From the NCBI RefSeq assembly GCF_009193185.1, contig NZ_VUKF01000008.1, positions 62,001-126,000 of the forward strand: DNA of 64,000 nucleotides. Direction: 5' to 3'. The notes beneath the pieces are model-generated. The model ran no database searches and was not told where the DNA came from. It saw only the letters and a program-made list of their open reading frames with translations. Shown one piece after another: positions 1,961 through 42,200 of the stretch; position 1 is the first letter of the stretch, and every line of letters begins with the position of its first letter. This DNA comes from Georgenia thermotolerans (lineage in GTDB: Bacteria; Actinomycetota; Actinomycetes; Actinomycetales; Actinomycetaceae). The position numbers and the translations under genes were made by a program.

Positions 1961-3315
<1,355 letters not shown>

Positions 3316-3317
3316 GC

Positions 3318-4145
3318 ATGACGACCACCGGCGCGACGACCGCGTCCAAGACCGCCGCGGCGATCGACGCCGCCAAGGCCCGCGGGGGAGCGGCGCTGAT
3401 CGGCTACCTCCCGGTCGGCTTCCCCGACGTCGACACCTCCATCCGGGCCGCGCGCGAGCTCGTCGCGGCCGGCGCCGACGTCATCGAGCTGGGGCTGCCC
3501 TACTCCGACCCGGGCATGGACGGCGAGACCATCCAGCAGGCCACCCAGGCCGCGCTCGACGGCGGCACCCGCACCGCCGACGTGCTGCGCGCCGTCGAGC
3601 AGGTCGCCGCGACCGGCGCCGCCGTGCTCGTCATGACCTACTACAACCCCGTGTACCGCTACGGCGTGGACCGCTTCGCGCGCGACCTGGCCGCGGCGGG
3701 CGGGGCCGGCCTCATCACCCCGGACCTCATCCCGGACGAGGCGGGCGAGTGGATCGCCGCCTCCGACGCCCACGGGCTCGACCGGGTCTTCCTCGTCGCG
3801 CCCAGCTCCACCGACGCCCGGCTGCGGCTGACCGCCGGCGCCTGCCGCGGGTTCGTCTACGCCGCGTCCACCATGGGCGTCACCGGCGCCCGGACCGCCG
3901 TGGACACCCACGCGCGCGGGCTGGTCGCCCGCACCCGGGAGGCCGGCGGGGAGCCGCGGGTGTGCGTGGGCCTCGGGGTGTCCAACCGGGACCAGGCGGC
4001 CGAGATCGCCGAGTACGCCGACGGCGTCATCGTCGGCTCGGCGCTGGTGCGGACCCTCATGCGCCCCGACGGCGACACCGGCGCCGGGCTGCGGGACCTC
4101 AGCGCCCTCGCCCAGGAGCTGGCCACCGGCGCGCACGGCGGCTGA
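3318..4145 (+). CDS. trpA: Tryptophan synthase alpha subunit
   Basis: TrpA cleaves indole-3-glycerol phosphate into indole and glyceraldehyde 3-phosphate and channels indole to TrpB. The 275-residue barrel shows the catalytic Glu and Asp region ELGLPYSDPGMDG (from about residue 57), the TYYNPVYRYG segment, LITPDLIPDE, and VGLGVSNRDQ near the phosphate site. GGAG at 3306-3309 lies 8 nt before the ATG at 3318, which supports this start. A GTG at 3312 in a GTGA overlap with trpB would add only two residues and cannot be excluded. Confidence 0.95.
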   Translation: MTTTGATTASKTAAAIDAAKARGGAALIGYLPVGFPDVDTSIRAARELVAAGADVIELGLPYSDPGMDGETIQQATQAALDGGTRTADVLRAVEQVAATGAAVLVMTYYNPVYRYGVDRFARDLAAAGGAGLITPDLIPDEAGEWIAASDAHGLDRVFLVAPSSTDARLRLTAGACRGFVYAASTMGVTGARTAVDTHARGLVARTREAGGEPRVCVGLGVSNRDQAAEIAEYADGVIVGSALVRTLMRPDGDTGAGLRDLSALAQELATGAHGG

Positions 4146-40809: not shown

Positions 40810-40815
40810 TATCCT
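40810..40815 (+). promoter_or_regulatory. -10 box of the terC transcript
   Basis: TATCCT predicts a start near 40822, exactly where the riboswitch P1 helix begins. Confidence 0.5.
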
Positions 40816-40822
40816 GGGACGG

Positions 40823-40982
40823 CGGAGGGGAGTATTCCCGCAACGGTGGTGCCGTCATCACGGCAGGCGTCGCGCCTGCTCGGTGCCATCGGCCGCGCCC
40901 AGACCGGGGATCCGGCGGGCACGGCGGAAGAGACCTCCGGTACCTCGTGCTGCGCGCACATCCCTACGTACCGGAGGAAGTT
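40823..40982 (+). promoter_or_regulatory. yybP-ykoY manganese riboswitch with Shine-Dalgarno switch helix
   Basis: The leader has the class hallmarks: P1 CGGAGG (40823-40828) with CCTCCG (40934-40939), GGGGAGTA in the first leg, a GTCATCACGG segment, and AGAGACC in the second leg. CCTCCGGTAC (40934-40943) is also perfectly complementary to GTACCGGAGG (40968-40977), which contains the terC ribosome site. P1 formation with bound Mn would free the ribosome site; without ligand the 10-bp helix would hide it. This class is established as Mn2+-responsive and often precedes terC-like genes; the switch model is my inference from pairing. Confidence 0.85.
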
Positions 40983-42200
40983 GTGGACGTCCACGCCCTC
41001 GGATGGGCCGGCCTCGGGCTGGTCGTCGTCATCCTGATCACCATCGACATCGTCGGACACGTGCGCACCCCGCACGCGCCGTCGATGCGGGAGTCGGCGC
41101 GCTGGACGGCGTTCTACGTGTCCCTGGCCGTCGTGTTCGGCCTGATCATCTGGGGCATCTACGGCGGGCAGTACGCGGGCGAGTACTTCGCCGGGTACAT
41201 CACCGAGTACAGCCTGTCGGTGGACAACCTCTTCGTCTTCATCATCATCATCGGCGCGTTCCGGGTGCCCCGGGAGTTCCAGCAGAAGGTGCTGCTCTCC
41301 GGCATCATCATCGCGTTGGTGCTGCGGCTGATCTTCATCCTCGTCGGCGCCGCCGTCATCCAGAACTTCTCCTGGGTCTTCTACCTCTTCGGCGCCTTCC
41401 TCCTCTACACCGCCTACTCCCAGGCCCGCGAGGGCTCCGGCGGCCCGGCCGAGCAGGACGAGGGCTACCACGAGAACGCCGTCGTCCGGCTGATCCGCCG
41501 CGTCATGCCGGTCAGCGAGGGCTTCGTCGGGGACAAGATGCTCCACCGCGCCCACGGCAAGACGTTCATCACCCCGCTGCTCATCTGCATCTTCGCGCTC
41601 GGCACCGCCGACCTCATGTTCGCCGTGGACTCCATCCCGGCGGTGTTCGGCCTGACCAAGGAGCCGTACATCGTCTTCGCGGCGAACGCCTTCGCGCTCC
41701 TCGGCCTGCGCCAGCTGTACTTCCTCATCGACGGCCTCCTCGACCGCCTCGTCTACCTCCACTACGGCCTGGCCGCGATCCTGGGCTTCATCGGCGCCAA
41801 GCTGGTCATCCACGCCCTGCACGAGAACGAGCTGCCCTTCATCAACGGTGGCGAGCACTGGGACGTCATCCCCGAGCCGACCATCCTCGTCTCGCTGGCC
41901 TGGATCGTCGGCGTGCTGACCATCACCGTCCTGACGAGCCTCGCCAAGAACCGCAAGGACGCGCGCATCGCCGCCGCCGAGCGCGCCGTGGCGCAGGCCC
42001 GGGCGGCCCAGCAGCGTCACGTCATCCCCGAAGCCCCGGCCGACCGCCGGCCCGCCGGGGGCGTCGCCTCTGTCGCGGGCTCGGCCACCGATGGGGTGTC
42101 CGGGCGAGGTCCGGCGACCGACCCGGCCGACCCGGCCGACGCGGACGACGCGCCGGGCGCGGAGGACCGGGTGGACGAGGGCACCGGCCGCCGGGAGTGA
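40983..42200 (+). CDS. TerC-family membrane protein, probable Mn2+ exporter
   Basis: A 405-residue protein with eight or nine membrane helices of the TerC/Alx type. Conserved acidic membrane motifs are ITEYSLSVDNLFVF (about 72-85) and ADLMFAVDSIPAVFGLT (about 205-221), with FLIDGLLDRLVYLHYGLA further on. The C-terminus is a disordered Ala/Pro/Asp-rich tail of about 80 residues. Related proteins under the same riboswitch export manganese. The GTG at 40983 is chosen because GGAGGA lies 5 nt upstream and forms part of the riboswitch; an in-frame ATG at 40785 would lie upstream of the transcription start. Confidence 0.88.
   Translation: MDVHALGWAGLGLVVVILITIDIVGHVRTPHAPSMRESARWTAFYVSLAVVFGLIIWGIYGGQYAGEYFAGYITEYSLSVDNLFVFIIIIGAFRVPREFQQKVLLSGIIIALVLRLIFILVGAAVIQNFSWVFYLFGAFLLYTAYSQAREGSGGPAEQDEGYHENAVVRLIRRVMPVSEGFVGDKMLHRAHGKTFITPLLICIFALGTADLMFAVDSIPAVFGLTKEPYIVFAANAFALLGLRQLYFLIDGLLDRLVYLHYGLAAILGFIGAKLVIHALHENELPFINGGEHWDVIPEPTILVSLAWIVGVLTITVLTSLAKNRKDARIAAAERAVAQARAAQQRHVIPEAPADRRPAGGVASVAGSATDGVSGRGPATDPADPADADDAPGAEDRVDEGTGRRE

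Follow-up and report, generated by a model that had tools for sequence, protein, structure and literature searches.

An alx-like, compact yybP-ykoY leader before terC in Georgenia thermotolerans, very probably a translational Mn2+ riboswitch

Several described RNAs are close to the leader reported here. The alx and mntP leaders of Escherichia coli are placed in the yybP-ykoY class and both are reported to respond to Mn; in unbuffered medium, 1 mM Mn is described as raising translational reporters of alx 3-fold and 2 mM Mn 6.5-fold (PMC9603457). In the account given in PMC6754395, Mn2+ docks L1 with L3, stabilising P1.1. The Lactococcus lactis and Xanthomonas oryzae aptamers treated there have, as here, an L1 with a conserved A10 and an L3 with a Mn-contacting adenosine (A41/A48), and differ from our leader in their four-way junction and in the anti-termination described for them (PMC6754395). 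For the mgtA riboswitch of Streptococcus pneumoniae a review names a three-way junction (PMC9495176), a comparison that we make by description alone. Leaders of the class have already been listed for Corynebacterium glutamicum, one of them before terC (PMC3890552). This actinobacterial terC leader (cg2157) is given there with an RF00080 score of 49.13 bits, and its 5' region was observed by RNA-seq; the match was made with the Rfam version of its time (the paper dates from 2013), and it too is compared by description alone. In the literature searched, of which coverage was partial, we found no earlier paper on the leader type reported here, and earlier notice of a form lacking P2 is possible.

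The window, i.e., the whole stretch of DNA analysed, comprises 64,000 nucleotides of a G. thermotolerans contig (NZ_VUKF01000008.1), and all features given below are on its forward strand. The gene of interest (40983-42200) starts with GTG at 40983, 5 nt after a GGAGG, and encodes a TerC-family membrane protein, as the preliminary description had supposed (PF03741, E 3.1e-49). The neighbour preceding terC encodes UvrB. We conclude that the leader between them is very probably a translational ON riboswitch of the yybP-ykoY (Mn2+) class, in a compact, alx-like form without P2. The landmarks on which the class was originally proposed were all confirmed, letters and coordinates alike, by a check of the sequence: the P1 strands CGGAGG (40823-40828) and CCTCCG (40934-40939), the class landmarks GGGGAGTA (40827-40834) and AGAGACC (40929-40935), and the complementary strands CCTCCGGTAC (40934-40943) and GTACCGGAGG (40968-40977). 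To these we add the L3 metal loop, P1.2, P3 and P4, which that description lacked.

The 5' strand of P1.1, the switch helix (40823-40828), was identified from the fold, covariation and its letters. It is followed by the 5' side of L1, GGAGUA (40829-40834), which occupies invariant columns of an alignment of relatives (A2, below), GGGGAGTA being present in 30 of 30 family loci. The 5' strand of P1.2, UUCC (40835-40838), covaries with its partner GGAA (40926-40929). P3.1 is formed by 40844-40854 and 40881-40891 (covariation, and for the 3' strand also the fold), and encloses the L3 metal loop UCAUCAC (40855-40861) and the P3.2 hairpin (40862-40880; fold and covariation). P4 (40892-40925) is a hairpin of variable length, recognised from the fold and from length variation in A2, and was left out of the covariation count. 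The 3' side of L1, GAGA (40930-40933), was placed from A2. Next is CCUCCG (40934-40939), a switch strand common to P1.1, as its 3' strand, and to the core of the anti-Shine-Dalgarno (anti-SD) strand (40934-40943); both assignments draw on the anti-SD tests described below, the former also on covariation and the latter on the leader fold and letters. The strand that contains the ribosome site, 40968-40977, is sequestered in the OFF helix according to the leader fold and the anti-SD tests.

Two features typical of the class are present. The internal loop L1 has GGGGAGUA facing GAGACC and is closed by P1.1. L3 lies within P3, and its letters correspond to those of the solved structures: in a positional alignment UCA(40857)UCAC stands against UCA41AUUC and ACA48UACU (PMC6754395). 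A40857 thus appears, by position, to match the Mn-contacting A41/A48. With this spacing, the combined L1 and L3 motif pattern has a single occurrence in the window and none in 100 dinucleotide shuffles.

We built a covariance model (R1) from 29 distinct terC leaders of one family; its E-values come from a shortened calibration. R1 scores the window's element at 91.8 bits (E 1.1e-24), a value that is not independent because this element is one of the 29 training leaders, and elsewhere in the window the best E is 0.64. In 20 kb of E. coli sequence R1 gives the alx leader 43.3 bits (E 5.1e-11). This match is full-length (model positions 1-121) and brings AGGGGAGUA, the L3 motif and GAGACCU into register. 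The leader is thereby homologous to an experimentally Mn-responsive member of the class. The likeness is one of aptamers, with L1, L3 and P1 motifs as in the window; the alx leader is lower in G+C and its P4 is unlike that of the window. The E. coli mntP leader reached only 11.8 bits (E 0.079), which we counted against the proposed reading. A second terC paralog of the same Georgenia genome has an element of its own (L039, G000:C19:52973-53088), which lies outside the training set and scores 72.7 bits.

Folding of the aptamer part gives P1.1, P1.2, P3 and P4, with an energy z of -2.71 (three of 200 shuffles were as good). The whole leader shows a weak excess (z -1.63; 14 of 200 shuffles as good), and thermodynamics by itself is the less striking support. 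In each of the 30 fetched terC loci of the family, GGGGAGTA occurs once within 350 nt upstream of the gene, and GTCA starts 26-29 nt past its first base. Alignment A2 contains the 29 distinct aptamers of these leaders (L013 duplicates L012). Its four stems (P1.1, P1.2, P3) are paired in 92.0% of cells, and pairing falls to 39-56% when the partner is slid by 1-3 columns. Double changes occur at 15 of 26 pairs (shuffled mean 10.0; equalled by one of 500 shuffles) and in 71 cells (shuffled mean 21.7; 0/500); the four measures of covariation other than the pair count were reached by none of the 500 shuffles. For example, the first P1.2 pair is UA in 13 sequences, CG in nine, AU in three and unpaired in four, and both sides have changed at seven of the 11 P3.1 pairs. 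The second P3.1 pair (columns 29-96) is unpaired in 17 of 29 sequences, which counts against the structure.

The P2 helix and four-way junction of the solved structures were not found in the window's element. Between GGGGAGTA and GTCA, 54 of 57 elements have 17-22 nt (three fell outside the search expression), and both the window's element and the alx leader have 19 nt. Once the 5' strands of P1.2 and most of P3.1 are accommodated, a gap this short leaves about 5-7 nt, too little for P2. P2 is not required for the class, as the gap of the alx leader is equally short. RF00080-positive elements of Actinomycetota (L097-L107) have the same L1 landmark and the same kind of L3, but differ in a distance of 26-38 nt from L1 to the L3 core (11 of 11), with a stem of at least five pairs within the gap in 10 of 11. 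By eye, a hairpin followed by a U tract can be made out in several of them. Gap length separates the two groups. The longest stem within the gap, tried as a test for P2, did not do so cleanly (it measured 2-5 pairs among the 54 elements with a short gap and 3-10 among the 11 RF00080-positive ones), because the gap also contains strands of P1.2 and P3. The window's element is an alx-like yybP-ykoY aptamer consisting of P1.1, L1, P1.2, P3 with L3, and P4, with no room for P2. We considered whether a three-way junction is new and rejected the idea, given the same short gap in alx, short-gap matches in Firmicutes and Proteobacteria, and what the review describes for pneumococcal mgtA.

The strand shared by P1.1 and the anti-SD helix marks the expression platform as probably of the translational type. 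For the leader as a whole, the anti-SD hairpin is the favoured fold (OFF, -88.9 kcal/mol, vs ON, -82.5 kcal/mol, or -79.0 kcal/mol for the ON fold with the SD core, 40972-40977, held unpaired). In the family alignment pairing in the anti-SD/SD helix reaches 86.7%, and double changes occur in 10 cells (shuffled mean 2.9; 0/500); the number of pair types shows no excess (8 vs 8.6, reached by 394 of 500 shuffles). We extended the test to 141 elements, of which 136 are distinct, leaving out the 24 non-actinobacterial named loci and the truncated L155. At least seven contiguous anti-SD pairs (G-U allowed) are possible in 107 of the 136 actinobacterial elements and not in the other 29, compared with a mean of 77.8 (maximum 87, 200 runs) when downstream regions were swapped and 24.0 (maximum 32, 50 runs) when they were shuffled. 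At the third P1.1 pair from the outer end, the letters of the 5' strand, switch strand and SD in these 107 elements are G/C/G in 74, A/T/A in 14, A/T/G (a G-U wobble) in 12 and others in seven; related sequences inflate these three-strand counts, as they do the anti-SD counts. Because three strands change together, the two helices appear to be kept compatible with one common strand. The claim that P1 and the ribosome-site helix exclude each other is thus borne out by covariation, the anti-SD and three-strand tests and the alx match, and the class assignment by the covarying stems, the switch-strand tests and that same match.

In the mechanism that we propose, transcription would begin at or just before the aptamer. 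When little Mn2+ is present, the favoured fold would pair CCUCCGGUAC (40934-40943) with GUACCGGAGG (40968-40977), hiding the terC ribosome site. Mn2+-dependent docking of L1 on L3 would stabilise P1.1 and P1.2, CCUCCG would be drawn into P1.1, and the ribosome site would be freed for production of the TerC membrane protein. Since P1.1 would take CCUCCG from the ribosome site, we infer that Mn2+ turns terC on.

Readout by hiding of the ribosome site is set against a transcriptional control that uses Rho or pausing. The CCUCCG switch could equally expose or hide a Rho site, and Rho-dependent regulation is reported for mntP (PMC11647493). However, an intrinsic terminator was rejected for the platform, where none was found, and the strand that competes with P1.1 is the ribosome site itself, covarying with the switch strand. 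We therefore regard transcriptional control as unlikely and take the readout to be probably translational. It is exceedingly improbable that the leader combines a chance motif likeness with an ordinary constitutive hairpin at the ribosome site: the lack of an RF00080 match (see below) and the low z of the whole-leader fold could be read in this way, but not readily the motif upstream of terC at all 30 family loci, the covarying stems and the recovery of alx by R1.

The physiological signal may also be other than Mn2+. Binding of another divalent ion, or of Ca2+ plus Mn2+, is suggested by the two Na/Ca exchangers and seven P-type cation ATPases that follow related elements among 57 loci, and by the pneumococcal mgtA aptamer, for which the review gives a higher affinity for Ca2+ than for Mn2+, though Mn2+ activates transcription more (PMC9495176). 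We consider this reading quite unlikely, as L3 retains the adenosine whose N7 contacts Mn2+ in the solved structures (PMC6754395), terC is the downstream gene at most of the 57 loci, and the product of E. coli alx is annotated as a Mn2+ exporter. Being a relative of alx by R1, the leader could instead respond mainly to pH, with Mn2+ secondary. Alkaline pH as well as Mn is reported to trigger the alx and mntP reporters, and buffering of the medium at pH 5.0 to dramatically suppress the activation of the alx reporter by Mn (PMC9603457). The same paper describes the pH and Mn signals as acting in concert, however, and the conserved core of the element is its metal pocket, which makes a primarily pH-responsive leader very improbable. 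Mn2+ is thus the ligand that we favour, and Mn2+ control of terC becomes directly testable in actinobacteria.

A TATCCT sequence reported 7 nt before P1 was found at 40810-40815 and is a probable -10 box. TANNNT ending 3-14 nt before P1 is present in 62 of 81 distinct upstream stretches, that of the window counted among them (mean of 200 shuffles 5.8, maximum 13). A generic sigma-70 scan found no promoter at this leader. From the position of the box, transcription would probably start at or just before P1.

The preliminary description had proposed a search with the Rfam model of the class, RF00080, and took absence of a hit as evidence against the assignment. That search indeed failed: RF00080 yields nothing in the window at the gathering score, nothing in the leader even at E<=10 and nothing anywhere in the genome at E<=0.001. 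The assignment itself still stands on R1 and alx. No other Rfam family could be assigned to the leader, the sole match being a miRNA at E 9.7. We calibrated RF00080 on two regions of E. coli K-12 with the alx and mntP leaders (L228:5372-5500 and L227:5462-5558). At E<=5 in 20 kb the alx leader was not listed, and the mntP leader scored 41.6 bits, under the cut-off of 45; thus, the cut-off is not diagnostic, and RF00080 was rejected as arbiter. Because the published alx switch is also unlisted, yet is found by R1, the lack of a match is not a valid refutation, and the miss of this leader is a weakness of the model. All seven RF00080 places in the order are also R1 matches (32.6-74.9 bits), three of them (in G060, G119 and G105) being R1 places in the order-wide search, and of the 11 places in the phylum nine give weak R1 matches at the element (E 1.6e-7 to 0.4). 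As they match overlapping loci, the two models describe overlapping parts of one class. The leader is therefore a member of a known riboswitch class that the current Rfam model largely misses; what is new here is the extent of this blind spot and the three-strand covariation.

In the order, 149 genomes were searched; R1 has matches in 83 of them and RF00080 in seven, none above the cut-off. In the phylum, with 296 genomes, the counts are 48 for R1 and ten for RF00080, one of the latter above the cut-off, and no genome is in both tables. That the same genome sets underlie the counts of the two models was judged from equal numbers and handles. Stricter filters were used in these searches, so that weak matches were lost with either model: R1 also matches order loci L004-L007, which are missing from the order-wide table, and phylum loci missing from the phylum-wide listing. 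A survey by the RF00080 cut-off would miss all 149 genomes of the order, as well as the E. coli alx leader, and a lack of RF00080 matches says little about members without P2.

The downstream gene was identified at 57 loci, which are the 59 loci L038-L096 (window's element included) minus L071, at a contig end, and L040, with E 0.49; the tally is confined to fetched loci and so omits some weaker matches. Calls were made by tblastn to representatives, and Pfam was run on the seven ATPases, two exchangers, two odd proteins and five TerC proteins of this set and on the window's TerC. TerC is encoded at 46 loci, P-type cation ATPases at seven and Na/Ca exchangers at two (55 of 57 together); the remaining two have an M50 peptidase with a CBS domain (L095) and a protein without Pfam match (L075). 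Outside the window's family the 49 loci comprise 38 terC, seven ATPases, two exchangers, the M50 peptidase and the protein lacking a Pfam match. Leaders with AAAGGGAGTAG at L004, L005 and L007 (near 1465-1569; R1 57-60 bits) precede genes for GDT1 divalent cation antiporters.

The short-gap pattern was matched by at least 119 stretches of the collection. The matches listed include 80 named loci, of which 24 are non-Actinomycetota (sorted by record titles; Firmicutes and Proteobacteria are represented). R1 matches all 80 at E<=0.01, with one match partial where the stretch ends, and none of the 36 that were scanned with Rfam reached the RF00080 cut-off. Carriage by viruses was rejected, the pattern having no match in viral_contigs. 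It is likely that the compact form without P2 is the main Mn2+ riboswitch of Actinomycetota, with a large regulon that is for the most part unannotated (terC, P-type cation ATPases, Na/Ca exchangers and GDT1 antiporters), and that it represents a subtype invisible to the Rfam model, other phyla and E. coli alx included.

Some contigs have more than one element. In a Nonomuraea contig (L135) two are placed back to back, at 1762-1862 on the reverse strand and 1942-2045 on the forward strand; a TerC gene follows one of them and another ORF the other. An Alkalihalobacillus contig (L110) has two on the same strand about 500 bases apart (3024-3118 and 3535-3629). In one relative, a guanidine-III riboswitch (70.9 bits) was identified 3' of terC (L028:3072-3136, reverse strand).
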